DNA of 27,638 bases from a virus, in the IMG/VR virus record IMGVR_UViG_3300044695_008713, positions 1 through 27,638 of that record; one strand, given 5' to 3'. Positions within the stretch are counted from its first letter, which is position 1; each line of letters opens with the position of its first letter. Below, piece after piece: positions 2,482 to 27,638 of this stretch. Made by a program: the position numbers and the translations under genes. Under the pieces are notes generated by a model. The model had not been told where the DNA came from, ran no database searches, and was given only the letters and a program-made list of their open reading frames with translations.

Positions 2482-3435
2482 TTGAATGTCTTGGCTTTAT
2501 GTGCCGGCGCTGGCGGGCTTGAGCTTGGCCTGCGTCTCGCCGTGCCTGATGCCCGTGCCGTTTGTTATGTCGAGGGGGAAGCCTATGTTGCCAGCCTCCT
2601 TGTTGCGCATATGGAAGCAGGACGGTTGGATCCGGCGCCTGTCTGGTCTGATGTTAGAACCTTTGACGGCCAGCCATGGCGTGGCAAAATTGATTGTATC
2701 ACTGCCGGATACCCCTGCCAGCCCTTCAGCATCGCAGGGAAAAAACGCGCTGCCGATGACCCACGGCATTTGTGGCCACACGTTGCCCGCATCGCCCGTG
2801 AAATCCAACCCCAGTGGTGCTTTTTCGAGAACGTTGCCCACCATTTATCGCTGGGATTTGAACAGGTCTGCCATGACTTGGGCAATATGGGTTATGCGGT
2901 TGCGGCAGGCTTGTTTAGCGCGGAAGAAGTGGGTGCGCCGCACCGCCGCGAGCGGTTGTTTATCGTGGCCTACCGTGCGCGTGTCATCGGCGAACGGGCC
3001 GTCATCGCGGGAGATTGCAGCGGGCAACCCGAAACAGCGGCTGGAAGTGGATGTGGTGCATTGGATGCAGAATCTCTGGCCGACCCCACGGGCGCAGGAG
3101 CCAGGCAGCACCAGCGACAATTACAGCATGGGGTTGGCCGAAACGACAAAAGTTTGGCCAACCATCACGGCGCAGGATGCGAAGAACAATGCGGGGGCGA
3201 GCCAGTTTCAGCGCAACACCAAGCCGCTGAATGTGGAGGCGGCCTTACACTGTTCCCGCCCCACCCCGACGGCGACTGGAGTAGCGTCCCAGCCCACCTT
3301 AAACCCAGCGTTCACCGAATGGCTGATGGGCTGGCCCATCGGGTGGACCGCATCCGCGCCTGCGGTAACGGGGTGGTACCGCTGGCAGCAGCATATGCGT
3401 GGCGCACTCTCCGCGCTTGTTTCGATCAGGACTGA
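2482..3435 (+). CDS. DNA (cytosine-5-)-methyltransferase, Dcm family
   Basis: 317 residues with the C5-MTase motif order: AdoMet-binding ALCAGAGGLELG (residues 5-16), catalytic PCQPFS with Cys79, ENV at 116-118, the QxRxR-type HRRERLFIVA (154-163), a variable target-recognition region, and a late motif RVDRIRACGNGVVP close to the C-terminus. It methylates cytosine in a specific site; in a phage this usually protects against host restriction. The start is TTG at 2482, since no in-frame ATG precedes motif I; ribosome site is weak. The region after residue 164 is Gly/Ala/Gln/His-rich, and the +1 frame over the same DNA encodes another methyltransferase-type C-terminus (see finding). Confidence 0.85.
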   Translation: MNVLALCAGAGGLELGLRLAVPDARAVCYVEGEAYVASLLVAHMEAGRLDPAPVWSDVRTFDGQPWRGKIDCITAGYPCQPFSIAGKKRAADDPRHLWPHVARIAREIQPQWCFFENVAHHLSLGFEQVCHDLGNMGYAVAAGLFSAEEVGAPHRRERLFIVAYRARVIGERAVIAGDCSGQPETAAGSGCGALDAESLADPTGAGARQHQRQLQHGVGRNDKSLANHHGAGCEEQCGGEPVSAQHQAAECGGGLTLFPPHPDGDWSSVPAHLKPSVHRMADGLAHRVDRIRACGNGVVPLAAAYAWRTLRACFDQD

Positions 3436-3472
3436 CTATGAACGACTTGCACATCCAGCAGTATCCCCTTGA
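2975..3472 (+). CDS. Alternative-frame methyltransferase-type C-terminal region (WPTP repeats)
   Basis: This frame is open from 2486 to 3472; only the part after about 2960 looks protein-like. It reads WPTVRVSSANGPS, then NLWPTPRAQEPGS, VWPTITAQDAKNN, RNTKPLNVEAAL, RPTPTATG and LNPAFTEWLMGWPIGWT. WPTP-type repeats ending in LNPxFxEWLMGxPxGWT are, from family knowledge, the C-terminal region of a set of phage cytosine methyltransferases, normally fused directly to the catalytic domain. Here they lie +1 to it. GTG at 2975 is given only as the first start-like codon in this part; no ribosome site is seen, so expression would need frameshifting or a weak internal start. It may be non-expressed overprinting. 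Confidence 0.4.
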   Translation: MRVSSANGPSSREIAAGNPKQRLEVDVVHWMQNLWPTPRAQEPGSTSDNYSMGLAETTKVWPTITAQDAKNNAGASQFQRNTKPLNVEAALHCSRPTPTATGVASQPTLNPAFTEWLMGWPIGWTASAPAVTGWYRWQQHMRGALSALVSIRTDYERLAHPAVSP

Positions 3473-4685
3473 ACGCTTGATCCCCTACGCCCGCAATGCG
3501 CGGACACACGCGGATGAACAGATCAGCCAGATTGCGGGCAGCATTGCGGAGTTCGGCTTTGTGAACCCGATTCTTATCGGGGATGACAACGTCATCATCG
3601 CTGGGCATGGGCGCTTGATGGCTGCGCAGCGATTGGGCTTGCCGACAGTGCCAGTGATTATGCTGGCGCATCTCAGTGAAACCCAGCGGCGGGCACTGGT
3701 CATTGCCGATAACAAAATCGCCGAAAACGCAGGCTGGGACGAAGAGATGCTCCGCATTGAGTTGCAAGCCCTTCGGGAAGCGGATTTTGATCTGGACATT
3801 ACGGGGTTTGATTTTGAGGATATCGACAGGCTTCTGAACGGTGAATCGGCTGAAAACCAACCTCTTACCGACGATGACGCCGCCCCTGAAGTTCAAGAAA
3901 ACCCGATATCGCAGCCCGGTGACCTGTGGTTGCTCGGTGATCACCGTGTGCTTTGCGGCTCGGCCACGGTGTTGGCGGATCTGGAAAAGGTTATGAACGG
4001 CCAACTGGCCGACATGGTCTTTACCGATCCGCCCTACAACGTGGATTATGGCAATACGGCAAAAGATAAAATCCGGGCCAAAGGCGGCAAAAAAGCGGGC
4101 CGCACCATCATGAACGATAACCTCGGTGAGGGATTCGAGCAGTTTTTGTACGATGCCTGCGTCAATTTTCTCTTGGTCTGCAAGGGTGCGGTGTATGTGT
4201 GCATGAGTTCCAGCGAGCTGGACACGCTGCAATCTGCCTTTCGCAAGGCAGGCGGCAAATGGTCAACCTTCGTCATCTGGGCGAAAAATACCTTCACGCT
4301 GGGACGCTCTGATTACCAGCGGCAGTATGAGCCGATTTTGTATGGCTGGAAGGAAGGCGCAGAGCATTTCTGGTGCGGCGCACGCGATCAAGGCGACGTC
4401 TGGTTTTTTAACAAACCCCAGAAAAACGATCTGCACCCCACCATGAAGCCGGTGGAACTGGTGGAACGGGCGGTGCGTAATTCCAGCAAGACGCGTGACA
4501 TCGTGCTCGATCCGTTCGGCGGTTCTGGTTCTACCCTTATCGCTTGTGAAAAAACCGGGCGGCAGTCGCGGCTGATTGAACTTGATCCCCGCTATGTCGA
4601 CGTGATTGTGAAGCGGTGGCAGGATTTTACGGGGAAAACGGCGATCCGCGAAGACGGAACGCCGTTTTCTTCCGGGTCACTTTAG
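3438..4685 (+). CDS. ParB-domain DNA methyltransferase (N6-adenine/N4-cytosine type)
   Basis: 415 residues in two parts. Residues 1-95 form a ParB/sulfiredoxin-like N-domain (LIPYARNARTH, GFVNPILI, IIAGHGR). From about 155 comes a beta-class N6/N4 methyltransferase with motif IV DPPYNVDYG (197-205) and AdoMet motif DPFGGSGST (358-366) at the C-terminal end. DPPY favours adenine over cytosine as substrate. Such fusions are common in phages and mobile elements and are orphan modifiers without a restriction partner; none is seen here. The start at 3438 lies 3 nt after the upstream stop with AGG at 3428-3430; the extended frame from 3399 only reads through the previous gene. Confidence 0.88.
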   Translation: MNDLHIQQYPLERLIPYARNARTHADEQISQIAGSIAEFGFVNPILIGDDNVIIAGHGRLMAAQRLGLPTVPVIMLAHLSETQRRALVIADNKIAENAGWDEEMLRIELQALREADFDLDITGFDFEDIDRLLNGESAENQPLTDDDAAPEVQENPISQPGDLWLLGDHRVLCGSATVLADLEKVMNGQLADMVFTDPPYNVDYGNTAKDKIRAKGGKKAGRTIMNDNLGEGFEQFLYDACVNFLLVCKGAVYVCMSSSELDTLQSAFRKAGGKWSTFVIWAKNTFTLGRSDYQRQYEPILYGWKEGAEHFWCGARDQGDVWFFNKPQKNDLHPTMKPVELVERAVRNSSKTRDIVLDPFGGSGSTLIACEKTGRQSRLIELDPRYVDVIVKRWQDFTGKTAIREDGTPFSSGSL

Positions 4686-9722: not shown

Positions 9723-10704
9723 GCATCAGCGCATTGCCGTGGTGCCCGTGCTGGGGCCAATGGTTAAACGCGGCTCGTTCCTCGATGCACTGTTCGGCTT
9801 TGGAAATTATGAAGACGTGCAGGCACGATTCGATTCCGCCCTCAATGATCCATCGGTAGATGCCATTCTGCTGGAAATTGACAGCCCCGGCGGTGAAGCG
9901 GCAGGCGCGTTTGATCTGGCCGACCGTATTTTTGCCGCCCGTGGCAGCAAACCCGTCTGGGCAATGGCCAATGACAGCGCGTTTTCTGCCGCCTATGCCA
10001 TTGGCAGTGCCGCCGATAAACTGTTCCTCACCCGCACGGGCGGTGTGGGTAGTATCGGCGTGCTGGCCGCCCATGTGGATCAGTCTGGCTATGACGAAAA
10101 GCAGGGCGTGAAGGTCACAACGCTGTTTGCGGGCAGCCGTAAAAACGATTTTAACGCCCATGAACCCTTAAGCGAAGACGCCGCTGGCTTCCTGCAAGTC
10201 GAGGTCAACCGCCTGTACGGCTTGTTTGTCGATACCGTATCCCGCAACCGCAGCCTTTCCAGCGATGCTATCCGCGCCACCGAAGCTGGTCTGTTTTTTG
10301 GCGAGGATGCCGTGAAAGCGGGTCTTGCCGATGGTGTTGGCACTTTTGAAAGCACACTCCAAGCCCTTGCCTCGACCCTAACCCCAACCACCAAAAGAAA
10401 GGAAACCCGTATGCTTGATGAAAAACCACCGATTGATCTGGAGGCTATCCGAAAAGAAGCCGCCGAAGCCCTGAAAACCCAGCATCTGGAAATCATCCAC
10501 GCCTGCCGTTTGGCTGGCAAGCCCGATAAGGCGGCTGATTTTATTGAGCAGGGCGCATCGCTGGATGTTGCCCGCAGGGCACTCCTCGAGATGGCCGCGC
10601 AACAGGCGGAAATCCAATCCCAAATCCAGCCTGCCAGCGGCACCGATGCGCCAAACCCCATGCTGGCCGAAGCGCAGAAACGCGCCGCCCAAGCCAAACA
10701 CTAA
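9607..10704 (+). CDS. S49-family prohead protease with C-terminal scaffold region (lambda gpC-like)
   Basis: 365 residues. The first 40 are a linker, then a ClpP/SppA-fold protease: LLEIDSPGGEAAGAFDLAD, catalytic Ser127 in FSAAYAIGSAAD, GGVGSIGVLAAHVD, and a probable general-base Lys179 in AGSRKNDFN. After residue 269 the sequence changes to a helical, Gln/Ala-rich scaffold-like tail. In lambda, gpC processes the prohead and the 3' part of its gene encodes scaffold Nu3 from an internal start; the same layout is visible here (separate entry). A degenerate CCCTAACCCC tract (about 10376-10385) lies at the protease/scaffold boundary. Confidence 0.88.
   Translation: MTTLHGSYWLNKPLLLAPHALHQLQHPFAKTSTLTPKTSHQRIAVVPVLGPMVKRGSFLDALFGFGNYEDVQARFDSALNDPSVDAILLEIDSPGGEAAGAFDLADRIFAARGSKPVWAMANDSAFSAAYAIGSAADKLFLTRTGGVGSIGVLAAHVDQSGYDEKQGVKVTTLFAGSRKNDFNAHEPLSEDAAGFLQVEVNRLYGLFVDTVSRNRSLSSDAIRATEAGLFFGEDAVKAGLADGVGTFESTLQALASTLTPTTKRKETRMLDEKPPIDLEAIRKEAAEALKTQHLEIIHACRLAGKPDKAADFIEQGASLDVARRALLEMAAQQAEIQSQIQPASGTDAPNPMLAEAQKRAAQAKH
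10411..10704 (+). CDS. Nested scaffold protein (Nu3-like), internal start in the protease gene
   Basis: An in-frame ATG at 10411 is preceded by AAAGGA at 10398-10403 with 7-nt spacing, a stronger ribosome site than the parent gene's. It would yield 97 residues beginning MLDEKPPIDLEAIRKEAAEAL, helical and charged, with an Ala/Gln-rich middle, as expected of a scaffold. The position at the protease/scaffold domain boundary copies the lambda C/Nu3 arrangement. Expression from this start is inferred. Confidence 0.65.
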   Translation: MLDEKPPIDLEAIRKEAAEALKTQHLEIIHACRLAGKPDKAADFIEQGASLDVARRALLEMAAQQAEIQSQIQPASGTDAPNPMLAEAQKRAAQAKH

Positions 10705-10716
10705 GGAGCCCCCATC

Positions 10717-11091
10717 ATGCCTGCTTTAAACGAATCGAATTATCTCGGCGATTTCCTGAAATACGAAGCGCCGAACCTGTTTTCTAGGGAAAACGCAGTG
10801 ATCGGCACAGGGGCCAACTTAACCCTGGGGGCTGTTCTGGGACGCATCACGGCAACGGGGAAGTATGTTCTGCTCGCCCCGGCCGCCGTGGATGGCAGCC
10901 AGACGGCGGCGGCGATTTTGCTGGCGGATGCCGCTGCGGCTACAGCGGATGTTAAGGGCCTCATTCTCGCCCGCCATGGCATTGTCGCCGATCACGGCCT
11001 TGTTTGGCCAGGCAGTGCCACACTGGCGCAAAAAAATACGGCCATTTCACAACTGGAAACCAAGGGCATTCTTGTCCGTAAAGGAGTGTGA
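10717..11091 (+). CDS. Head decoration protein, lambda gpD family
   Basis: 124 residues, near lambda gpD length (110). Visible family features are an N-terminal arm (LNESNYLGDFLKYEAPNLFSRE), GTGANLTLGAVLGRIT, and a C-terminal strand segment with LILARHGIVADHGLVW. gpD-type trimers cap the expanded capsid and stabilise it. AAGGAG (10703-10708) overlaps the upstream stop. In lambda the capsid gene follows directly; here a 404-bp element separates them. Confidence 0.85.
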   Translation: MPALNESNYLGDFLKYEAPNLFSRENAVIGTGANLTLGAVLGRITATGKYVLLAPAAVDGSQTAAAILLADAAAATADVKGLILARHGIVADHGLVWPGSATLAQKNTAISQLETKGILVRKGV

Positions 11092-15907: not shown

Positions 15908-18367
15908 ATGGCCACCCGAAATCTCTCCATCCGCCTTGCCACCGAAAATGGCAAAGTCGTCGCGCGGGAGTTGCAGGATATTGGCCGTACCGGCGAACAA
16001 GCCCTAAAGCGGATTGAACAGGCCAGTATCCCAGCATCGAACCAGCTGCAGGCCCTCAATTCGGTTGTGGGTGGTCTGAAGCGTGTCTTTGTGGCTGGGG
16101 CTGCCTTGGCGGCGGGCAACCAGATTTTTGACAGCATCAACCGCGCCGTCATAAAAACGGCGGAGCTGGGCGATTTGGCCCAGAGCATCGGCATCAATGT
16201 CGAGCGGCTTCAGGAATTGCGCTACGCCGCCGAACAAAGCGGGGCATCGGCGGAATTGCTGGATGATGGCATCCGTAAACTCAACCAGCGCCTCGGGGAT
16301 GTCGCAACCGATGGCACGGGTGCGGCGGCGGGGGCGTTTGAGCGATTACAGATTGCGGCCCTGAATACTGACGGCACCATCCGCAACGCCGGCGATGTGT
16401 TCGATGAGTTTGTTCGCAAACTCGAAAGTGTAGGTTCTGAGGCTGAAAAGGCCGCCTTGGCCTCGGATCTGTTCGGCAAACAGGCAGGGCCGCGTCTGGT
16501 GCAATTTCTCTCCGAAGGCGAGGCCGGCATTGCCAGCCTTTCCAAGGAAGCCCGTGCGTTCGGCCTCGTGATGGGCGAGGATCTGGTCAAACAAACCCAA
16601 GCCCTTGAAGATGAATGGAATCGCTTCACCCAGCAGGTAGATACCACCTACAAAACGGTTATCCTACGCACCGTCAATGGTCTGCGGGGATTGTTCAGCG
16701 ATCCCTCGCTGGAAGAGCAGTTTCGGGATTTAACCGCACGATTGCAACGGGCAACGGCGGATTTGAACGCCTCGCAGCAACTGAACAATGATAGCGATGG
16801 CCTGCTGGGTGGGCGCCGCATCGTCCAAGCCCGCGAAGAGGTGAACCGTATCAAAGCGGAACTAGATGTTGTACAGCGGCAGATCCTCGAAAACGCCGCT
16901 ACCGAAGCCGCCAAACAGCGCAAAAAAGAGGAAGCTCAAAAGGCCTACGAAGCCGCCCGTAAGCAACAGGATACAGGCGAAGTCATCGATACCCTGCAGC
17001 GCGAACAGCAGCAGATTGAACAATTAAACGCGGCGATGATCCAAGGCGCAGACGCCGTGGCGCGGGTGAAGGGAGAACAGGCCGCCGAAACACAGATTCG
17101 CAAGCTGGGGATCGATGCCAAAAGCGCGGAAGCCCAGAAAATCCGGGAACTGGCCGTGGCCAATGCCGCGTTAGAACAGGCGGGCAGAGAACAGGCCGAA
17201 GCCCAAAAAAGCACCGTGGATGCCCGTGCCAGCGTCATCCGTTCCTTGGAAGATGAACGGCAGGCGTTGCAACTCAACGAACGCCAGCAGTTTATTTTAA
17301 CGGCGGAACGCCGGCTTTCCAGCGAAGCCACTGCCACCCAACGCGAACGGGTGCGGGAACTGGCAGGGGCGCTCTACGATGAAAAAACCGCGCTGGAAGC
17401 CACCAAAAAAGCGCAGGAAGATTATGCAAAAAACCAAGAGATTCTGGCACGATTAGAGGCCGATCGTTCTGCTGTCGGCAAATCGGATAAGGAAAAATTC
17501 ACGGATCAAGCCGTGGAGAGGCTCTCCCCAGATGCCACCGATGACCAAAAAGCCAAAGCCCAGGAGCTGGCGGCGAAACTCTACGAAGAACAACAAGCCG
17601 CCGATGCCGCCCGGCAGGTGTTCGAAGCCACCCGCACCGATGCGGAAAAATACGGCGCTGAAATCGCCAAACTGAACGACCTACTGGCCAAAGGGGCCAT
17701 TGACCAAGACACCTATAACCGCGCTGTCGCTCAGGCGAAGGAGACATTTCATCAAGCCGAAGATGGCGTAGACGGTTTTGCCACGGGCGCGAAACGGGCC
17801 TTGGAAGACTACGCCAAATCCGCCACCGACGTGGCCGGACAGGTGCAGGACGCCATGAGCCGCAGCCTGCAGGGGCTTGAGGATTCGCTGGTAGATTTCG
17901 TCACCACGGGAAAACTCAACGTTCAAGACCTTGCCAATAGCATTCTACGGGATCTGGCCCGGATTGCCGTTCGCCAAGCCATCACCGCACCGCTGGCACA
18001 GGGGATTTTGGGTGCGGGCATCTTTCACGAAGGTGGAACCGTTGGCGCGGGCGCACCGTCACGCGCTGTCTCGCCGATGCTGTTTGCCACGGCTCCCCGC
18101 TACCACAGTGGCGGCATTGCGGGGCTGATGCCTGATGAAGTGCCCGCTATTCTGCAACGGGGCGAAATTGTTATTCCTAAGGGAGGTTTTAGGGGCGAGG
18201 GTGGAGGGGGTAGTGATGACCCACCCCCTAAAACCTCCACCCTACAACCTATCACGGTCAACATGACCGTGATGACCCGCGACGCCGAATCCTTCCGTCA
18301 AAGTCGGGGGCAGATTATGGGGGATCTTGCCGTGTCTCTGGCGCGGCACAAGGGGAGAAATACATGA
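15908..18367 (+). CDS. Tail tape measure protein
   Basis: 819 residues, the largest protein in the window. The N-terminus (ATRNLSIRLATENGKVVARELQDIG) and the helical heptad-rich centre (about 270-590, dense in E, Q, K, A) are standard for siphovirus tape measures; hydrophobic patches lie near residue 55 and 700. At the usual 1.5 angstrom per residue the tail would be about 120 nm. A G-rich inverted repeat (18182-18250) encodes a Gly/Pro/Ser linker near residues 759-778. It overlaps the DUF2460 gene by 4 nt. Confidence 0.9.
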   Translation: MATRNLSIRLATENGKVVARELQDIGRTGEQALKRIEQASIPASNQLQALNSVVGGLKRVFVAGAALAAGNQIFDSINRAVIKTAELGDLAQSIGINVERLQELRYAAEQSGASAELLDDGIRKLNQRLGDVATDGTGAAAGAFERLQIAALNTDGTIRNAGDVFDEFVRKLESVGSEAEKAALASDLFGKQAGPRLVQFLSEGEAGIASLSKEARAFGLVMGEDLVKQTQALEDEWNRFTQQVDTTYKTVILRTVNGLRGLFSDPSLEEQFRDLTARLQRATADLNASQQLNNDSDGLLGGRRIVQAREEVNRIKAELDVVQRQILENAATEAAKQRKKEEAQKAYEAARKQQDTGEVIDTLQREQQQIEQLNAAMIQGADAVARVKGEQAAETQIRKLGIDAKSAEAQKIRELAVANAALEQAGREQAEAQKSTVDARASVIRSLEDERQALQLNERQQFILTAERRLSSEATATQRERVRELAGALYDEKTALEATKKAQEDYAKNQEILARLEADRSAVGKSDKEKFTDQAVERLSPDATDDQKAKAQELAAKLYEEQQAADAARQVFEATRTDAEKYGAEIAKLNDLLAKGAIDQDTYNRAVAQAKETFHQAEDGVDGFATGAKRALEDYAKSATDVAGQVQDAMSRSLQGLEDSLVDFVTTGKLNVQDLANSILRDLARIAVRQAITAPLAQGILGAGIFHEGGTVGAGAPSRAVSPMLFATAPRYHSGGIAGLMPDEVPAILQRGEIVIPKGGFRGEGGGGSDDPPPKTSTLQPITVNMTVMTRDAESFRQSRGQIMGDLAVSLARHKGRNT
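18182..18250. repeat. G-rich inverted repeat embedded in the tape measure gene
   Basis: GGAGGTTTTAGGGG (18182-18195) pairs perfectly with CCCCTAAAACCTCC (18225-18238), with further G-rich (GAGGGTGGAGGGGGTAG) and C-rich (CCACCCTACAACC) units around it. It keeps the reading frame and encodes a Gly/Asp/Pro/Thr linker. Same family as the 11095-11498 element ends. Confidence 0.7.
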
Positions 18368-18966
18368 GTGGTTTCCACGAAGTCCGCTTTCCCGATGCCA
18401 TTGCATATGGCGCAACGGGTGGCCCCGAATACCTCACCGACATTGTCATCCTGCAATCGGGCTTTGAGCAGCGCAATCAGAGCTGGGACAGTGCCCGGGC
18501 GCGGTATGATGTCTCGACCGGCATCAAAAATCGCACCCAAGCCACAGAAGTCATCAGCTTTTTCCGCGCCCGCAAAGGGCGGGCTTACGGCTTTCGCTTC
18601 AAGGACTGGAGCGATTATCGCGTCATAGGACAGCTGATTGGCACCGGTAACGGCACGCAAACCGCCTTTCAGCTGACCAAAACCTACACCAGCGGCGGTG
18701 AAAACGAGACCCGCCCTCTGAAAAAGCCCGTCTCGGGCACGGTGAAGATTTACAAAGATAGCATCCTGCAAGCGTCCGGCGTTGCCGTGGATCACACGAC
18801 AGGGGTGGTAACGTTTACCACCGCCCCGGCTGCCGGCGTTCTGATCACGGCGGATGCTGAGTTTGACGTGCCCGTGCGCTTCGACACCGACCGCCTCGCT
18901 ATCCGCATCCAGTCCCACGAATTGTTCGTCTGGGATCAGATTCCCCTTATTGAGATTCGCTTGTGA
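18364..18966 (+). CDS. DUF2460 distal tail protein (GTA g12-like)
   Basis: 200 residues of the DUF2460 family: FHEVRFPDAIAYGATGGPEY, WDSARARYDV, EVISFFRARKGRAYGFRFKDWSDY and a C-terminal VRFDTDRLAIRI. In the Rhodobacter gene transfer agent the equivalent gene (g12) encodes the distal tail ring that joins tube to baseplate. It starts the four-gene GTA-like tip module here and overlaps both neighbours by 4 nt. Confidence 0.9.
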   Translation: MSGFHEVRFPDAIAYGATGGPEYLTDIVILQSGFEQRNQSWDSARARYDVSTGIKNRTQATEVISFFRARKGRAYGFRFKDWSDYRVIGQLIGTGNGTQTAFQLTKTYTSGGENETRPLKKPVSGTVKIYKDSILQASGVAVDHTTGVVTFTTAPAAGVLITADAEFDVPVRFDTDRLAIRIQSHELFVWDQIPLIEIRL

Positions 18967-19799
18967 TTCCGGCTTCAACTACCCTGAAAACCCACCTCGC
19001 CAGCGAGGTCACCACCCTTGCGCTGTGCTGGAAGGTGACGCGCAAGGACGGTGTAGCGTCGGGCTTTACCTCGTTCAGCCGTGATCTGGTGGTGGAGAGC
19101 GTTACTTACAAAGCCTCCACGGGCTTTACCCCCACCGCCATTGAAACCAGCGCCGGGCTGGCGGTGGATCAGTTGGAGGTCGAGGCCATCCTCAATGACA
19201 CCAGCATCACCGAGGCGGATTTGCAGGCGGGAAAATACGATTACGCCGCCATTGAGGTTTTTCTGGTCAACTACCAAGACCTTAGCCAAGGTAAGCTGGT
19301 GTTGCGCGTGGGCACACTGGGGGAAGTCACGGTGCGCAAGGGCGTGTTCGTGGCGGAGATTCGCGGGTTATCGCAGGCTTTTCAACGCCAGATCGGCGAA
19401 CTCTATTCTCCCACCTGCCGCGTCAAACGTTTGGGCGATGCCCGCTGCAAGATCGACCTTGCGCCGTACACCCATACATTAACGGTATCAGCGGTGACCG
19501 ATCAGCGCACCTTTGCCCACACCACCAACCTGAAGTCGGACGGATATTTTCAGATGGGGCTGGTGGAATGGCTAACGGGTGCAAACGCAGGGCTTGAGAT
19601 TGAGGTTAAAACCTACACCAGCGGCGTGTTCACGCTGGTGCAGCCCATGCCCTATGCCATTGCGGCGGGCAACACCTTCAAAGCTATTCGCGGCTGTGAT
19701 CGTACATTTGAAACTTGCCGCACGGTGTTTAACAACGTGCTCAACTTTCGCGGCGAGCCCCATTTGCCCGGCATTGACCAGATTCTGAAACTGCCATGA
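18963..19799 (+). CDS. DUF2163 baseplate hub protein (GTA g13-like)
   Basis: 278 residues, GTG start overlapping the upstream stop (GTGA). DUF2163 features: FSRDLVVESVTYKASTGFTPTAIE, AGLAVDQLEVEA, LREGTLGEV-like GTLGEVTVRKGVF, and four Cys in SPTCRVKRLGDARCKIDL (about 151 and 161) and GCDRTFETCRTVF (about 244 and 251). Lambda gpL, a related hub protein, binds an iron-sulphur cluster through C-terminal cysteines; the four Cys here are a likely equivalent (inference). Confidence 0.9.
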   Translation: MIPASTTLKTHLASEVTTLALCWKVTRKDGVASGFTSFSRDLVVESVTYKASTGFTPTAIETSAGLAVDQLEVEAILNDTSITEADLQAGKYDYAAIEVFLVNYQDLSQGKLVLRVGTLGEVTVRKGVFVAEIRGLSQAFQRQIGELYSPTCRVKRLGDARCKIDLAPYTHTLTVSAVTDQRTFAHTTNLKSDGYFQMGLVEWLTGANAGLEIEVKTYTSGVFTLVQPMPYAIAAGNTFKAIRGCDRTFETCRTVFNNVLNFRGEPHLPGIDQILKLP

Positions 19800-20224
19800 A
19801 CCGCGCTGATATTGTGATTGAAGCCCGTTCGTGGCTGGGCACGCCGTATCATCATCAGGCCGCGCTGAAAGGCGTAGGCTGTGACTGTATCGGTTTACTG
19901 CGCGGGATTTATGAGGCGTTTCTCACGCCGCTGAAAGTAGACATCAACTACTCGCCGCACTGGCATTTCCACCGTGCGGAAGAGGTGCTCTACGCCCACG
20001 TCTGCCAGTACGCCGAAGAAATCCCGTTGGAATCGGCCAGCATTGGCGATGTGCTGTTGTTCGGCTTTGGCACGGGGCCAGCGGCGCACGCAGGCATCAT
20101 CGCCAGTACGGACACCATTATCCATGCCTATGCTGAAATCGGCAAGGTGGCGGAAACGCGGCTTTCTAACAAATGGCTGGCCCGCCGCCGTTTTGCCTTT
20201 CGTTTTCCAGGGCTTGAGGACTGA
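19796..20224 (+). CDS. NlpC/P60 cell-wall peptidase of the tail tip (GTA g14-like)
   Basis: 142 residues. WLGTPYHHQAALKGVGCDCIGLLRGIYE carries the catalytic Cys31 (DCxGL), and AAHAGIIAS carries His98; the enzyme cleaves peptidoglycan peptides during DNA entry. Size and neighbours match GTA g14 and lambda gpK. No separate endolysin appears in this window, but this protein is expected to be part of the particle rather than a lysis enzyme. Confidence 0.88.
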   Translation: MNRADIVIEARSWLGTPYHHQAALKGVGCDCIGLLRGIYEAFLTPLKVDINYSPHWHFHRAEEVLYAHVCQYAEEIPLESASIGDVLLFGFGTGPAAHAGIIASTDTIIHAYAEIGKVAETRLSNKWLARRRFAFRFPGLED

Positions 20225-20841
20225 TGGCTCAGTTAGCCCTCGCTGGGGCTGGGGCACTGGTCGGAAGTGCCTTTGGTGCGCCGTACCTGGGCTTTGCGCT
20301 GGGTTCTCTGCTGGGTGGTGTTCTGTTTCCGCAAGACGGCCCACCGGATCAAATCCAAGAAGGGCCGCGCCTGCATGACCTGAAAGTGCAATCCTCCGCC
20401 CACGGCACGATGCTGCCGCTGGTGTACGGCACGGTGCGGATTGCCGGCAACGTCATCTGGGCGGCAGACCTCGAAGAACAGGTGGTCACGGAAACCAACT
20501 CCGGCAACGGCGGTAAAGGCGGCGGCGGATCGGTGACCAGCACCACCCGCACCTATATCTATTTCGCCAGCTTCGCCGTGGGGCTGTGCGACGGACCGAT
20601 TGCCTCTGTGAATCGGGTATGGGCCAACGGCAAATTAGTGCACGATGCCAGCAGCAGTTTGCTGGATATGATGGTGTATCTCGGAAACGAAACACAATCC
20701 CCTGATGATCGCATCGAAAGTGCGCTGGGTGTTGGTTTCGTGCCTGCTTATCGGGGCATGGCTTACGCTGTCATTAACCGCCTCAACCTTACCGATTACG
20801 GCAACCAGATTCCCAATTTGCACTTCGAGGTCACGGCGTAA
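20224..20841 (+). CDS. Megatron/tail-hub N-terminal domain as a free-standing protein (GTA g15-like, split)
   Basis: 205 residues. A hydrophobic Gly/Ala-rich start is followed by QEGPRLHDLKVQSSAHGTMLPLVYG and RIAGNVIWAADL, then a Gly-rich loop, FAVGLCDGPIASVNRVWANG and YGNQIPNLHFEV. This is the standard N-domain of the large GTA g15-like tail protein, which normally continues without a break into the region found here at 23588. The protein stops right after the N-domain, so the large gene has been divided. It abuts a paralogous N-domain (1-nt overlap). Confidence 0.82.
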   Translation: MAQLALAGAGALVGSAFGAPYLGFALGSLLGGVLFPQDGPPDQIQEGPRLHDLKVQSSAHGTMLPLVYGTVRIAGNVIWAADLEEQVVTETNSGNGGKGGGGSVTSTTRTYIYFASFAVGLCDGPIASVNRVWANGKLVHDASSSLLDMMVYLGNETQSPDDRIESALGVGFVPAYRGMAYAVINRLNLTDYGNQIPNLHFEVTA

Positions 20842-22472
20842 TGGCGATGCTGGTACTCGGTGCCGCAGGCGCAGGCATGGGATCAGGCTTCGCCATGGCG
20901 GGGCTTGGTTTAGGCATTGCCGCCGCCGTGGGCGCATTCAGCGCGGCGGGGAGTTTGCCCAACGCCGATGCCTATCAGGTGGGACCGCGCCTGGAAGATT
21001 TGAAAGCTCAATCCTCAGCGCACGGGGCAATGATTCCGCTGGTGTACGGCATCACCCGCGTGGCGGGAAATGTCATTTGGTCAACCGAAATCACCGCCAC
21101 ATCGGAAAACGTGCTGGTGGGCACCACGGTGATTGAGGGCGGCAAGAGCGGGCGAACCCAACCTGTCTACCAAACGCGGGAATTTTATGTGGCCAGTTTC
21201 GCCGTTTCGTTCGCCAATACGCTGGCGTTAGAAGAGGAAGGCAGCGCACGGGAAAGCTTCGAGGATGAGGACGAACTGACCTTCAAACGCCGCCAAGGCA
21301 TCTCGGCGATGCGGCGCATCTGGATGAACCGCAATCTGGTGTATGACTTTCGCGCCAACAATCGCGGCGTGAATGGCCGTGATTTGAATGTGGAGATTTA
21401 CCTCGGCGGCGAAGAGCAAGCCCCCGATGAATTGATCGAAAGCCTTGAAGGCATAGGCTTAACGCCCGCCTACCGTGACCATGCCTATCTGCGGTTCGAT
21501 ACGATTGACCTTTCGCGTTATGGCAACCGTCTGCCCAACGTGGAAGCGGAAGTCATCGACACCCTGGGGCGTGTGTTTACCGAAGAAGGACCCCACGGCC
21601 TCGCCGAAGGGCTGGATGGCGATATCTATGTGGTGAACCGCCTGCAACGCACCGTCACACGGATTGACGGCACAACGTTTCAGGTCAAAGCAACGATTGG
21701 CCGCAGCAACGCGGAGTATTTGGGGTCACTGGACGCACAGCCCGTGCGGACGGCAATCAGCCCCGTGGACAGCCACCTATGGGTGACGTGCCATGCCAAC
21801 AACACCGTGCAGCGCATGAATCCTGCGACAAACGCGATCATTTCCACTGTCAACACAGGGATTTACCCGTGGGGCGTCAAAGTTGCTGCCGATGGTTTTG
21901 TCTGGATCACCTGCCCGTGGGTGGATCTCGTGCAGAAAATCAATCCTGCCACGGGCAGCGTTGTTGCCAGCTATACGGTGGCCGAATGCCCCACCGAAAT
22001 GGCTTTCGGTCTTGACGGCGATCTGTGGGTGACGATCAATGAGGGCGTCGTGCGCCTGAACGCAAGCACGGGGGCGGTCAAAGCCACAATTCCCCTAGGC
22101 TTCTTCCCTTGGGGCATCGCTGTTAATCCCGTTAACGGCTTTGTCTGGGTAGTGGTGAACGGCCAAGACATCCTGCAAGTCATCAACCCCGCCACCAACA
22201 CCATCACCAAAACGCTGAACCATGGCACGGGCGCCATGGATGTCAGCATTCATCCGCTTGATCCTTACGGCATCGTCTGGTCAACCAGCTACGGCGGCAA
22301 CAGGGTGCGTTCTTACAGCCCAAAGGAAGGCTTTGCCAAAGACGGCGGGTATCTCTCGCTCATTCAGTACGGCACGGTGGCCTTTCCGGAGCAGGTGCTG
22401 GCATTGAGAGATGGGCGGTTTGTCGTGACGCAAACGAAATACGATTTTGTGCTCATTGGTGAAGGCTACTGA
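20841..22472 (+). CDS. Second megatron N-domain fused to a Vgb/NHL-like beta-propeller
   Basis: 543 residues. Residues 1-239 parallel the upstream protein: GPRLEDLKAQSSAHGAMIPLVYG, RVAGNVIWSTEI, FYVASFAVSF, RRIWMNRNLVYD and YGNRLPNVEAEV. From about 245 to the end, six or seven propeller blades follow with the pattern W-G-(I/V)-x-V...VWVT...VQRxNPATNAI, as in virginiamycin B lyase/NHL-type propellers. Propellers at tail tips usually bind receptors or glycans; lyase activity is not implied. The duplication plus fusion is unusual. Confidence 0.8.
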   Translation: MAMLVLGAAGAGMGSGFAMAGLGLGIAAAVGAFSAAGSLPNADAYQVGPRLEDLKAQSSAHGAMIPLVYGITRVAGNVIWSTEITATSENVLVGTTVIEGGKSGRTQPVYQTREFYVASFAVSFANTLALEEEGSARESFEDEDELTFKRRQGISAMRRIWMNRNLVYDFRANNRGVNGRDLNVEIYLGGEEQAPDELIESLEGIGLTPAYRDHAYLRFDTIDLSRYGNRLPNVEAEVIDTLGRVFTEEGPHGLAEGLDGDIYVVNRLQRTVTRIDGTTFQVKATIGRSNAEYLGSLDAQPVRTAISPVDSHLWVTCHANNTVQRMNPATNAIISTVNTGIYPWGVKVAADGFVWITCPWVDLVQKINPATGSVVASYTVAECPTEMAFGLDGDLWVTINEGVVRLNASTGAVKATIPLGFFPWGIAVNPVNGFVWVVVNGQDILQVINPATNTITKTLNHGTGAMDVSIHPLDPYGIVWSTSYGGNRVRSYSPKEGFAKDGGYLSLIQYGTVAFPEQVLALRDGRFVVTQTKYDFVLIGEGY

Positions 22473-23584
22473 TGCTCAATTTCATCGAAACCAGCGGCGC
22501 ATTGACAGCGAGGCAACTCACCAGCACCAATGTCGGCCTGTCGTTCCACAACGTGCAGCGCAAACGGTTGGAAAAATACGGCAAGCAGTACATCTCCACC
22601 GACCATCAGCCGGTGCAAAACCTGCTGTCCGAAGGGCAAGCCGACACCAGCAGCGGCGCGGTGAAGAAAAGCCGTCGGGGATTTCAGGATACCCGCCGTC
22701 TTCTGGTCATCAGCCAGTGGTATCGGTATTCTCTCGATACCGCCGCCCGCGACAAAATCCGCCGCGTATTGTTGGACTGGACGAGCCTCAATATCCCCGA
22801 TGGCAACCCCATCAACGAGACGCATTTCGAGGGGTTTTTGAAGGCAATCCGCCTGCACCGTGATTTGTTCAATGCATCCGAAAATGCCATCCTGAATGCC
22901 TGGCTGACCAAGATCCGCAACGCTGCGGAAGGCTTCACCTTCCCCGGCCGCGCCACCCGCTACGGCAACTGGTACACACACCACCTGAAAAAACTGCTGC
23001 TGTGCTATTACGCGCAGGAAGATACCGCCGCTTTTAATGCGCTGTTGCTGACCATTGATGCCCACGCGCTGGTGAATTTTCCTTACGGCAATGCCAGCGT
23101 CATCGTTCCTGCGGTGGGTGTTCCCTTTAACCAATCTATCCACGATATTCCCCGTGGTGCTACCCATGCGGGCGAAAGCATCGACTACATCCGCCGAGAT
23201 TCTCTTCATTACCACGTTTATGACGTGGAACCTTGGCTCGAAATCGCCATCCTCACGGGCAACCGGTACGAGGCGCTGATGGATAATGCTTGGGTGTTTT
23301 TGAAAAACAAGCTGTTCTCATCCACCAAGCACTACGAATTTGCCGCCTCCACCGACCCTTTCGATGCGGAGCGCTGGCTCGCCAGCCGCCCCGAATACCT
23401 CGCGCCAAACGCGATGTTCATTCCCGGCCATGCCTCGCGGGTGGCTCTTGCCTACAGCCATTTCAAGCGGCTTTTGAATTCAAGTTATCAGCCTGAAAGC
23501 CGTATGATCACGATTGCCAGCCGTTCCGAACGCCTCACCACTGACTGGTATTACTGGTTTCGTTTGTTTTTGGGATACGCTTAG
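22472..23584 (+). CDS. Alginate-lyase-like (alpha/alpha-toroid) tail-associated protein
   Basis: 370 residues, no signal peptide. The region from about 165 (NWYTHHLKKLLLCYY) through GNASVIVPAVG to about 240-258 (RRDSLHYHVYDVEPWLEIAI) resembles the PL5/alginate-lyase-type toroid, where an Arg and a Tyr/His in an R-D-x-LHYHxYxxEP segment line the active cleft. A role in degrading an exopolysaccharide during adsorption is plausible. It overlaps the propeller gene by 1 nt and lies inside the split megatron locus. Without a search the family call is moderate; a non-catalytic structural protein is possible. Confidence 0.55.
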   Translation: MLNFIETSGALTARQLTSTNVGLSFHNVQRKRLEKYGKQYISTDHQPVQNLLSEGQADTSSGAVKKSRRGFQDTRRLLVISQWYRYSLDTAARDKIRRVLLDWTSLNIPDGNPINETHFEGFLKAIRLHRDLFNASENAILNAWLTKIRNAAEGFTFPGRATRYGNWYTHHLKKLLLCYYAQEDTAAFNALLLTIDAHALVNFPYGNASVIVPAVGVPFNQSIHDIPRGATHAGESIDYIRRDSLHYHVYDVEPWLEIAILTGNRYEALMDNAWVFLKNKLFSSTKHYEFAASTDPFDAERWLASRPEYLAPNAMFIPGHASRVALAYSHFKRLLNSSYQPESRMITIASRSERLTTDWYYWFRLFLGYA

Positions 23585-23587
23585 ATC

Positions 23588-25225
23588 ATGGCCTTGCTAC
23601 AGGAAGTGTTGGCGAACCTCTGCCAAAAGGCGGGGCTTGCCCTCTCACAAGTGGATTTATCGCTGGTGACGGGCACCATCGAGGGGTTTGTGGTGAGCAA
23701 CCGCGCCAGCGTGCGTTCCAGTCTCGAACACCTGCAGCGGGCGTTTTTCCTCGATATTGTTGAGAGCAGCGGCAAGATTCGCTTTGTGCCGCGTGGGCAG
23801 GCGGTGGCCGCAAGTATCCCGATTGCTGACCTGATCCCCCAAGGGGACGGTAACAGCCGTGAACTCCTCACCATCACCCGTCGGCAGGAAAGCGAATTGT
23901 CGCAGACGCTGAATGTGAATTATCTCAGCAAAGGTTCCGATTACCAGCAGGGCACGCAATTGGCGCAGCGGCAGGTGAACGAGGCCGAGAATGCCAGTAA
24001 CGTCACCGTGCCCATCGTCATGACCGCTGATTATGCGCGGAAAGTGGCGGATGTGCTGCTGTACACCGAGTGGACGGAGCGCACCTCGTACCGTTTCGCC
24101 CTGCCGGTGAAATATGCCTGCCTTGAGCCAGGCGATGTGATTGATATTGTGGCAACCGGTGCCACCCACCGCATTCGCCTGCAGAAAACGGCGCTGTCTG
24201 GCCAGCAGTTGCGCTGTGAGGGTTTTGCCGAGGATGGCAGCGTTTATAACCAGTCTAATCCCGGCGGCGGCGATACCATCCCCGTGCAGGTGGTACCAAA
24301 CGTGGGCGATACGGTTTTATTCCTGCTCGACATTCCGATATTGCAGGATGCCGACGACAACGCCGGCTTTTATCTCGCGGTGGACAGGCAGGAAAACAGC
24401 AGTTGGCGCGGCGCCACCGTATATCGCGCAAGCAACACCACGGATTATGGTTTTCTGGCCAGCAGCCCTGTGGCGGCCACCACCGGTAAAGCCACAACCC
24501 TATTGGCTTCTGGCCGCACCACGCTGTGGGATTATCAGAACACCGTAACGGTGGAATTAAGCCGCACAGGCACGCTGCTCTCATCGCCTCCACTCGATGT
24601 GCTGAATGGTTCCAACGCGGCGCTACTCGGCAATGAGATTATCCAGTGGCAAGCGGCGGAACTCATCGCCCCCAAAACCTACCGTTTGTCAAAATTATTA
24701 CGCGGACGGCGCGGCACGGAAGCCGCCGTTGGCACCCATGCCCTCAATGAACGCTTTGTGGTGCTTTCCAGCGGCACGGTGCAGCGCATTCCCGATGGGC
24801 TGGATCTGATTGGCGCGATGCGTTCCTACAAAGCCATCTCAGCCGGACGGGATATCACCTCCGCCACGGCAGCCAGCTTCAGCAACACCGCCAAGGGCTT
24901 GAAACCATTCTCACCAGTACACCTGAAGGGCAGTCGCAACGGCGCGGGTGATCTTACCCTCACCTGGAAACGCCGCACCCGTATCGGCGGTGGCTGGCGC
25001 GACAATGCCGAGGTGCCGCTTGGCGAAACCAACGAAGCCTACGAGGTTGAGATTTTAAACGGCACAGCGGTGGTACGCACGGTTGCCGCCGCCAGTCCCT
25101 CCATGACCTACACCGCCGTCCAACAAACGGCTGATTTTGGTAGCGTACAGGCGGCAATTGCTGTGCGTGTTTATCAACTGTCCGCCACTGTTGGGCGCGG
25201 AACATCTTTGGAGAAAACGATATGA
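23588..25225 (+). CDS. Megatron/tail-hub C-terminal part (Phage-tail_3 region)
   Basis: 545 residues. LLQEVLANLCQKAGLALSQVDLS, then FLDIVESSGKIRFVPRG, YARKVADVLLYTEWTERTSYRFALP and LEPGDVI are the features of the middle of GTA g15-like proteins (Phage-tail_3), followed by beta-domains with LLRGRRGTE and a C-terminal domain with LKGSRNGAGDLTLTWKRRTR. It begins exactly where the usual protein continues after the N-domain, so with the gene at 20224 it reconstitutes one ancestral megatron. It forms the central tip and DNA exit. Confidence 0.85.
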   Translation: MALLQEVLANLCQKAGLALSQVDLSLVTGTIEGFVVSNRASVRSSLEHLQRAFFLDIVESSGKIRFVPRGQAVAASIPIADLIPQGDGNSRELLTITRRQESELSQTLNVNYLSKGSDYQQGTQLAQRQVNEAENASNVTVPIVMTADYARKVADVLLYTEWTERTSYRFALPVKYACLEPGDVIDIVATGATHRIRLQKTALSGQQLRCEGFAEDGSVYNQSNPGGGDTIPVQVVPNVGDTVLFLLDIPILQDADDNAGFYLAVDRQENSSWRGATVYRASNTTDYGFLASSPVAATTGKATTLLASGRTTLWDYQNTVTVELSRTGTLLSSPPLDVLNGSNAALLGNEIIQWQAAELIAPKTYRLSKLLRGRRGTEAAVGTHALNERFVVLSSGTVQRIPDGLDLIGAMRSYKAISAGRDITSATAASFSNTAKGLKPFSPVHLKGSRNGAGDLTLTWKRRTRIGGGWRDNAEVPLGETNEAYEVEILNGTAVVRTVAAASPSMTYTAVQQTADFGSVQAAIAVRVYQLSATVGRGTSLEKTI

Positions 25226-26418
25226 GCACCCCACGTTTTGCCTTGCCCTACATTCAGGCCAGCCAGGCGCAAAAAGAAGTTACCCACAACGAAGCCCTGT
25301 TGATGGTGGATGCCTTGGTGAGCCTCAGCCTTGAAGACCGGCATTTGAGCGCACCGCCCATCAGCCCGCAAAATGGGCAGGTGTGGTTCATTAACGGGGC
25401 TGGATCAGGGTCTTGGAGCGGGCAATCCAACAAACTCGCCCATTACGACAGCGGCCAGTGGTATTTTTATGTCGTGCCCGATGGTCTGCGGGCGTGGATT
25501 AAAGATGAGGCGGGGTATTTTGTTTACAGCGGCGGTTCGTGGTCCGCGTTCGTGGGTAGCGGGCAGTTTATCACGGTGGCCAGCGTTTCCGCCAATTATG
25601 CGGTGCAAGCCAGTGACCGTGGCAAGCTGATCGCAGTTAACGCTAATACCGCCGCTGTTGAGGTGCGCCTGCCGAGCGCCGCAACCATCGGCAACGGCTT
25701 TCCTGTCACCGTCAAGAAAACCGACAGCAGCGCGAATGCCGTGACCCTGCGGGCGGCGCAGAACCTACTCACCCAAAGCCAGCAGCTCGACAACGTCGCC
25801 TGGACAAAAACCCGCGTTACCGTCACCGCCAATTATGCTGCCGCGCCCGATGGCACCACCACCGCCGACCGTGTGTTGGAAACGGTGGACAATGGCGTGC
25901 ACGAAATCAAACAGGCGTATAGCAAATCTGCGGGTGTTACGATTCTCACCGCCGCCGTGCGCCTCAAGGCCGATGGACGGAGTGAAGCCTACCTGATGCT
26001 GGATGACGGCACAGCGACCAATCGGGCACAAATCCGGGCGAACCTTTCCACTGGCGCGGTGCCCTTCACCGACAATACCGGCACTTACACGTTGTTATCG
26101 AATAGCGTCACCAGCCTTGGCAGCGGTTGGTATCTGCTGCGCATCACCGTCAGCGTGCCCACGGGGGCGGGCAGCGTCACGCAAACCGTGCGCCTTTATA
26201 ATGCAGGCACATCCTACGTTGGCGATACTGCCCTTGGTGTGCAGGCGTGGGGGATGCAACTGCAGGAAGGCAGTTTGCTGGGCGAGTACATGGAAACCAC
26301 CACCGCTGCGCTCACACAAACCATTGATGGTGCCAACGCCCAGAGCCTCACCACCCAGCACCAAGCCGTGCAGGTCGTCTCGGACGGCGCAAACTGGCTG
26401 ATTGCCGCCAAAGCCTAA
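25222..26418 (+). CDS. DUF2793 tail fibre/spike with C-terminal carbohydrate-binding-like domain
   Basis: 398 residues. The N-terminus (TPRFALPYIQASQAQKEVTHNEAL, DGLRAWIKDEAGYFVYSGGSW) is a clear DUF2793 domain, the particle-attached part of alphaproteobacterial phage and GTA fibres. A spacer with VQASDRGKLIAVN follows, then from about 180 a beta-sandwich-like module (NLLTQSQQLDNVAWTK ... VQAWGMQLQEG) of the kind common in phage receptor-binding proteins. It overlaps the upstream stop by 4 nt and is the last large structural gene. Confidence 0.85.
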   Translation: MSTPRFALPYIQASQAQKEVTHNEALLMVDALVSLSLEDRHLSAPPISPQNGQVWFINGAGSGSWSGQSNKLAHYDSGQWYFYVVPDGLRAWIKDEAGYFVYSGGSWSAFVGSGQFITVASVSANYAVQASDRGKLIAVNANTAAVEVRLPSAATIGNGFPVTVKKTDSSANAVTLRAAQNLLTQSQQLDNVAWTKTRVTVTANYAAAPDGTTTADRVLETVDNGVHEIKQAYSKSAGVTILTAAVRLKADGRSEAYLMLDDGTATNRAQIRANLSTGAVPFTDNTGTYTLLSNSVTSLGSGWYLLRITVSVPTGAGSVTQTVRLYNAGTSYVGDTALGVQAWGMQLQEGSLLGEYMETTTAALTQTIDGANAQSLTTQHQAVQVVSDGANWLIAAKA

Positions 26419-26441: not shown

Positions 26442-26633
26442 ATGAACGCCGACATTTCCAACGAATCCGAACACCTACCCATTCACGTCGCCAAGTGCGA
26501 GGAACGCTACAAGATGCTGGAAATGCGGCTCTCTCGCCTTGAACGCGCGCTCTATTGGATTGCCGCTGTGCTGATGACGGGCATGGCGACCATCATTTTT
26601 AAACTGTTTTTATTGGTACAGGAGATTGGCTGA
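26442..26633 (+). CDS. Small membrane protein, XhlA/holin-like
   Basis: 63 residues: an N-terminal charged coiled-coil ([22 protein letters not shown]) followed by one membrane span ([22 protein letters not shown]). This is the layout of XhlA-type haemolysin/holin-accessory proteins. GGAG upstream supports the start. Placed at the end of the late operon as expected for lysis. Its last 35 nt overlap the convergent arsenite permease gene. Confidence 0.68.
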
Positions 26634-27638
26634 AACGGTGCTGGGTGCGTTTCGCAACCCCCACAAGCCAAAGCATGACTGGCACTTCTACCAGCACCCC
26701 CACCACCGTTGCTAATGCCGCGCCAGAGTTAAGCCCAAACAGGCTGATGGCAACGGCCACCGCCAGCTCAAAGAAATTTGAACTGCTGATCAGCGCAGCG
26801 GGGGCGGCAATGCTGTGCGGGATGTGCGCTTTACACATCCAGACATAAGCAAGCGTAAACATCAGCACACTTTGCAGCAGAATGGGCACAGCAATCATGC
26901 CAATCACCAGCGGCTTTTGTAGCAGAGTTTCGGCCTGAAAGCCAAACAGTAGAACCACGGTGGCCAGTAAGCCCAGCACGGAATATGGTTTGAGATGGTG
27001 CAAAAAAGAAGACAGCCGCTGCTCACTATGCGCCAGCAGTTTCTTGCGCGTTAAGTATCCCGCGATAATCGGCGTTACTACGTATAACGCCATTGAAAGC
27101 ACCAGTGTTTCCCACGGCACTGCAATATCTGCAACCCCTAGCAGCAGCGAGGCAATCGGTGCATAGGCAAAAATCATGATGATATTGTTGAGTGCCACCT
27201 GCACCAATGTATAGGCCGCATTGCCGCCCACTAAACGGCTCCACACAAACACCATCGCCGTGCACGGCGCGGTGCCCAGCAAAATTAAGCCCGCCACATA
27301 CTGCTTAGCATCTTCGGGGGTAATACTTGAGGCAAAAATATGCTGAAGAAACACAACACCGAGTGCCGCCATGGAAAACGGCATCACCAGCCATGTCACC
27401 ACAAAACTGATGGCGAAGGCTTTTGGTTTCTTAAGAGCATCGCCAATCCTTGAAAAATCAACATTCACCATCATCGGGAAAATCATCACCCACACCAGCA
27501 CCGCTACAACCAGATTCACGCTGGCGTATTCCAAATGGGCAATGGCTTGGAAAACACCCGGAATCAGATGACCCAGCCCCACACCTGCGGCAATGGCGAT
27601 GGCAATCCACACCGAAAGATAGCGTTCAAAATAACCAA
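26599..27638 (-). CDS. acr3: ACR3-type arsenite efflux permease, 5'-truncated by window edge
   Basis: The frame is open to the right edge; the first in-window residues [18 protein letters not shown] match the usual N-terminus of ACR3 permeases, so only a few codons are missing. About ten membrane spans are visible, with the conserved [10 protein letters not shown] carrying the Cys required for As(III) transport, and [14 protein letters not shown] near the end. It exports arsenite using the proton gradient. The core ends near TQHRF; the last ten residues ([10 protein letters not shown]) are encoded inside the phage holin-like gene. It is either host DNA at the prophage edge or a carried gene; no other ars gene is in view. 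Confidence 0.88.

Follow-up and report, generated by a model that had tools for sequence, protein, structure and literature searches.

The closest described counterparts of the proteins considered here are the megatrons of gene transfer agent (GTA)-type tail tips, and the two solved structures of such tips both contain a single-chain megatron. The megatron of the R. capsulatus GTA (RcGTA; 6tba, 6teh), Rcc01698 (g15), is one chain of 1304 aa divided into an iris/penetration segment (residues 1-46), an adhesin-like domain (47-229), a peripheral domain (230-744), a central domain (745-984) and a fibre-binding domain (985-1304) (PMC7296036). The megatron of Dinoroseobacter phage vB_DshS-R4C (8gtc) has an additional carbohydrate-binding domain inserted in its peripheral region (PMC10276861), indicating that this region accepts accessory sugar-binding parts. 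In T5, the baseplate hub protein pb3 is one protein for what GTAs make as two (PMC10038345), and in RcGTA the tailspike TspA docks on the baseplate, where it contacts the peripheral domain of the megatron (PMC13420450, 2026 preprint). The same preprint moves the 'iris' helices from the megatron N terminus to the tape measure protein (PMC13420450), which leaves the N-terminal segment of the megatron without an assigned place, so that any description of this terminus as the iris needs care. Full-text literature searches found no report of a split megatron. Here we describe a phage locus in which the megatron is divided between genes and accompanied by a propeller and lyase cassette; its parts are of known kinds, and their arrangement is new.

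The window, by which we mean the whole stretch analysed (IMG/VR record IMGVR_UViG_3300044695_008713, 27,638 nt or 27.6 kb), codes for lambda-like terminase, portal, protease and capsid proteins as well as primase/helicase- and RuvC-like genes. This gene content identifies it as a temperate-type phage and not as a GTA, which would be an element without replication and packaging autonomy. Named phages searched at the DNA level with the window gave no match. Before the terminase genes lie two genes for DNA methyltransferases (2486-4685), of which the second includes a ParB-like domain. The tail-tip region, entirely on the + strand, contains genes for a DUF2460 protein of the GTA g12 type (distal tail protein; 18364-18966; PF09343, E 2.9e-76), a hub protein of the g13 type, the partner of the megatron in the tip (18963-19799; PF09931 'Baseplate hub protein', E 7e-58, and PF09356), and an NlpC/P60 peptidase of the g14 type (19796-20224; PF00877, E 8e-7), that is, the order that usually precedes a GTA megatron. 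In the position of the megatron (20224-25225) we found not one continuous chain but four open reading frames, separated by stop codons at every border: a free-standing N-terminal and adhesin-like domain (N1, 205 aa, 20224-20841), a second N-domain fused to a beta-propeller (N2-propeller, 543 aa, 20841-22472), a lyase-like protein (370 aa, 22472-23584) and the central and fibre-binding domains (C-part, 545 aa, 23588-25225), followed by a DUF2793 protein that is a fibre candidate (25222-26418; PF10983, 1e-26). The preliminary description, made from the letters alone, had proposed this layout of a split megatron with a propeller and lyase cassette between N1 and the rest, and the reading frames lie exactly where it had placed them. 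It had also called all these genes tightly overlapped, which applies to N1/N2 (TAATG) and N2/lyase (TGATG), each sharing 1 nt, and not to lyase/C-part, where TAG-ATC-ATG leaves a 3-nt gap without overlap. These three borders follow a pattern typical of translational coupling; the C-part and DUF2793 genes overlap by 4 nt (ATGA).

Profile and structure-database searches assigned N1 and the C-part to opposite ends of the megatron. N1 corresponded to positions 1-203 of the 1309-position PHROGs megatron profile phrog_4271 (E 2.5e-75) and to residues 1-202 of 6tba (E 1e-29), and the C-part corresponded to phrog_4271 positions 754-1306, the final 553 positions (E 1e-148), and to residues 766-1298 of 6tba (E 7e-44), with PF13550 (2e-41) and PF23666 Rcc01698_C (9e-27) both above their Pfam cut-offs. 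Set against the published domain borders of RcGTA, these limits place the cut at domain borders. N2, the first ~243 residues of its protein (20841-21569), matched phrog_4271 up to position 207 (E 1e-43) and the N-terminal regions of 8gtc (8e-16) and 6tba (2e-13). The start of the megatron, a hydrophobic segment followed by the adhesin-like domain, is thus present twice, each copy beginning with a glycine-rich hydrophobic stretch, and the homology of the two N-domains, on which the preliminary description depended, is borne out. None of the four proteins gave a Pfam match to GTA_TIM (PF13547); by this search the entire TIM-barrel peripheral domain is gone, which makes the locus a case of replacement as well as of splitting. 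Rcc01698 and the window share the N-domain, the central and fibre-binding domains and the DUF2460, hub g13 and NlpC g14 neighbours, and differ in that the former is one chain with GTA_TIM whereas the latter has four genes, no TIM, an extra propeller-bearing N-domain, and a lyase. The R4C megatron keeps the same domain order, but its accessory domain sits inside one 1447-aa chain and those of the window are separate proteins. Comparison of T5 pb3 with the GTA hub and megatron provides a precedent for a split hub, although there the division falls between hub and central domain, unlike that of the window.

The remaining half of the N2 protein (21570-22469) matched 1l0q and designed Pizza propellers in the PDB (6e-18) and, in Pfam, NHL above the cut-off and Vgb_lyase (1e-12) just under it, identifying a beta-propeller of the NHL/virginiamycin-B-lyase type and a presumed receptor-binding module. 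One pair of relatives, L068 and L070, shows 80% identity and 14 gaps over the propeller, compared with 98% for N1, 93% for the N2 domain, 98% for the lyase and 98% for the C-part; between L067 and L068 it is 66% identical, compared with 76-85% for the other parts. Such rapid divergence is as expected for a receptor-binding part, and it was clear only in the L067/L068/L070 group, not between the window and L009 or between L071 and L072. A relationship between the window propeller and the ~310-aa middle domain of L020-type single chains was unsupported (hhalign probability 5.5%); that domain has a marginal SMP-30 match only and is not claimed as a propeller.

The lyase-like protein had been described from the letters as resembling alginate lyases, a likeness that is weak in sequence and better founded in predicted structure. 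PF05426 (Alginate_lyase) matched the window protein below the cut-off (E 0.026, 14.4 bits against 22.2; best family member E 1.1e-4), and its sequence found no match in the PDB or among phage sequences. An AlphaFold2 model built from an alignment of 13 sequences (pLDDT 75, pTM 0.79) is all-helical, and nearly all of its leading PDB matches in Foldseek were alpha/alpha-toroid polysaccharide lyases (probability ~1.0, E 6e-4 to 1e-1, TM ~0.4-0.5), including GAGase II (E 6e-4), BACOVA_01668, A1-III, Smlt1473, PL38 and AlgL. The protein is thus predicted to adopt the alpha/alpha-toroid fold of PL5/PL38-type polysaccharide lyases and is presumed to be a depolymerase. N166, H246, Y247 and Y250 are invariant across the 13 sequences and are possible counterparts of the catalytic Asn/His/Tyr set of PL5/PL38. 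N166 is followed by Trp in the window clade and by His in other lineages; should position 167 correspond to the His of PL5 enzymes, activity in the window clade may be altered or lost. TspA offers a parallel as a separate depolymerase on a GTA baseplate, but it is a trimeric beta-helix encoded elsewhere and is unrelated to the window lyase.

About 13 further viral contigs share this architecture, the most distant of them at ~30-56% identity to the window. In relatives that are 92-95% identical, the four reading frames have unchanged lengths, and comparison of the window with five of them gave dN/dS of 0.04-0.10 for all four genes, indicating strong purifying selection on each. The order N1, N2-propeller, lyase, C-part is kept in the distant loci L067, L068, L069, L070 and L180, and partly in L064 and L066. 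Loci with N-propeller, lyase and C-part but no N1 make up a sister group (L059, L065, L071, L072, and the truncated L044 and L178), and no further N-domain was found in the whole G008 assembly, which holds L059. Every locus found with a window-type N-propeller also has the lyase and then the C-part. All cassette loci group together in the C-part tree (SH-aLRT 93), where three-gene (99) and four-gene (97) loci separate into two subclades, and the nearest single chains (L079, L080, L087; 89) all carry GTA_TIM. We rejected stop-codon read-through from the lyase gene into the C-part: the two share a frame in the window and L067, but relatives have various stop codons at the borders (TAG/TGA/TAA), and in L059 and others the frame is not the same.

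We consider it probable, at roughly 0.68, that the products of the four genes come together in trans as a single GTA-type tail-tip hub of three-fold symmetry, in which the propeller and lyase replace the built-in glycosidase-like domain. Three hub and three C-part subunits would form a ring like that of hub and megatron in 6tba and 8gtc, the C-part providing the central ring and a fibre-binding platform beside the hub protein. N1 would most likely fill the canonical adhesin-like position, packed beneath the C-part, and N2, as a paralogous and diverged N-domain, would be an adaptor holding the beta-propeller at the periphery. The lyase-like protein would bring polysaccharide cleavage to the tip and so open a polysaccharide layer. 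Propeller and lyase would together stand in for GTA_TIM, which in intact megatrons is covalently placed between the N-domain and the central domain, and a propeller off the continuous chain could change fast while the core stays constant. The sequences themselves show the homologies, the lack of GTA_TIM, a conserved, coupled and monophyletic cassette, the purifying selection and, in one pair, the faster divergence of the propeller; that the pieces join in one particle, in what stoichiometry, that the propeller binds a receptor and that the lyase is an active enzyme are inferred. On our best reading, this alphaproteobacterial phage lineage can vary its host-recognition parts while leaving the tail core unchanged, and the natural pieces would allow leave-one-subunit-out tests of channel sealing, specificity and host-range change.

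The two N-domains have diverged to different degrees. Positions of the single-chain consensus are kept at 82-85% in N1, 80% in the single chains themselves, 66% in N2 and 59% in the N-domains of three-gene loci, so that N1, which retains the consensus like a single chain, looks like the canonical subunit. An acidic insertion loop (21228-21296, the LEEEGSARESFEDEDELTFKRRQ region) is common to N2 and L059; N1 and most single chains lack it. The N-domain tree unites N1 of both four-gene subgroups in one clade (97/85) and N2 of both in another (98/88), each spanning the deep divide that separates the window group from the L067 group; the N-domains of three-gene loci group with N2 (88/90), and the N1 and N2 lineages jointly stand apart from every single-chain N-domain (80/89). 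Duplication at a late stage, within the four-gene group only, was not rejected (AU p 0.60, likelihood slightly better), and the trees are compatible both with loss of N1 from the three-gene group and with its never having been present there. In either case these loci manage without N1, whose role in the hub cannot then be generally essential, and the N-propeller would function there alone. The suggestion in the preliminary description that the propeller-bearing N-domain could replace the normal subunit thus holds between lineages, in L059, L065, L071 and L072, where it is the sole N-domain. The further suggestion that the two alternate, in competition for one set of three sites beneath the central domain and making the tip mixed or switchable, appears unlikely for the window. 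N1 and N2 are homologous across the whole N-domain and an N2-type domain alone suffices in three-gene loci, as alternation would need, but N2 has lost many residues kept by N1 and single chains and has the acidic loop, which points to different contacts, and both genes are constitutively coupled in one operon in which we noticed no switching element. A more far-reaching version of the trans-assembled hub, possible but less likely than not, would place N1 and N2-propeller at distinct sites on three C-parts, giving six N-domains in pseudo-six-fold arrangement; the fixed peripheral enzyme domain would then have given way to receptor and depolymerase subunits exchangeable in trans, serving phages as well as a resident GTA of the same bacterial order.

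Megatrons outside the cassette clade provide independent precedents for both elements of the window arrangement. Single-chain relatives carry, between the N-domain and the central domain, GTA_TIM (~490-700 aa), a domain of ~290-350 aa without assignment, ~153 aa, or 3-15 aa, so GTA_TIM is not universal, and the slot between adhesin-like and central domains can hold a TIM barrel, a ~300-aa domain, nothing, or parts supplied in trans. The chains with 3-15 residues there (L088, L092, L120, L123, L128, L138) represent a minimal single chain without a peripheral domain. L140, from a lineage other than the cassette clade, has a clean N and C pair with nothing between and no peripheral domain, and L110, L114 and L118 are variants split as N and X-C. 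A related split without the cassette and with unrelated genes in between would have counted against the preliminary description; the first part occurs in L140 and its variants, so that the split alone is not specific to the cassette, and in the cassette lineage itself no member has unrelated genes in the place of the cassette. L131 has a free N gene ahead of an intact TIM-bearing megatron, derived from a separate duplication (100/98). Each of these loci thus takes one of the two steps of the window and neither has a propeller or lyase, and together they indicate that both steps are viable elsewhere. The free N gene of L131, together with the dispensability of N1 in the three-gene lineage, could also suggest a non-structural N1, either a soluble decoy or an assembly factor or plug covering the C-part until N2-propeller docks. 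We regard this as improbable: the conservation of N1 equals that of the N-domain in intact megatrons, and the N1 dN/dS of 0.06-0.10 is as expected of a structural domain. The split N-domain gene of L140 (4951-5997) has a ~120-aa insertion within its adhesin-like domain, as do those of L110 and L114, and two complete megatrons stand in tandem in L111 and in L235/L237, the latter two from contigs of >300 kb.

The split megatron also occurs in bacterial genomes. Contig 7 of G008 (~16-37 kb; L059, L166) contains, between host genes and adjoining bioB and tyrS, an RcGTA-like cluster of terminase, portal, S78 protease, HK97-type capsid, head completion, tail tube, DUF2460, hub, NlpC, N-propeller, lyase, C-part and DUF2793 genes, in which we noticed no integrase or replication gene. 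C-part and DUF2793 likewise adjoin bioB in G001. In G009 and G010 (L060-L061, L162-L165, L168-L170), N-propeller, lyase, C-part, hub and capsid genes stand singly on different contigs, surrounded by housekeeping genes, and in G009 a terminase gene adjoins the C-part; between these two genomes dN/dS was 0.08 for the hub and 0.10 for the lyase, like host genes, and a looser 0.33 for the C-part. Gene content and position suggest that a putative resident GTA with a split megatron is present in the order of G001 and that in two members its genes have become scattered, a situation known for GTA genes in Orientia (PMC10732058). The free-standing lyase homologue in G009 and G010 might instead indicate that propeller and lyase are cargo or morons inserted in the megatron gene, host-modifying and expressed with late genes, with no role in the tip; L007, L045 and L059 do have small foreign genes inserted at these borders. 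But the same two genomes have other head and tail pieces scattered as well, so a lyase standing free there does not point to a host gene. The propeller, moreover, is joined to a tail-tip N-domain, and the cassette is inherited with the C-part and never absent in its clade; we regard cargo, too, as improbable.

Frameshifts, misassembly or gene decay, illustrated by the broken copies L064 and L105, are excluded for the window, where the layout is repeated in many independent contigs with conserved frame lengths and dN/dS of about 0.06, and where no frameshift can create a duplicated N-domain. Among the extra genes at the borders, L007, a close relative of the window, has a small low-GC cupin-like gene (by eye; 10351-10888) between the propeller and lyase genes and an extra ~100 bp separating N1 and N2. 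Opposite-strand toxin-antitoxin-like genes (RelE/ParE-like and VapBC-like, by eye) lie beside the split megatron genes in L045 (1560-1910) and L044 (2969-3711). At the right end of the window (26599-27636, - strand) is a Sodium-bile-acid/ACR3-type transporter gene, possibly host sequence, whose top match among the four genomes of the order of G001 compared is in G009 (60%).
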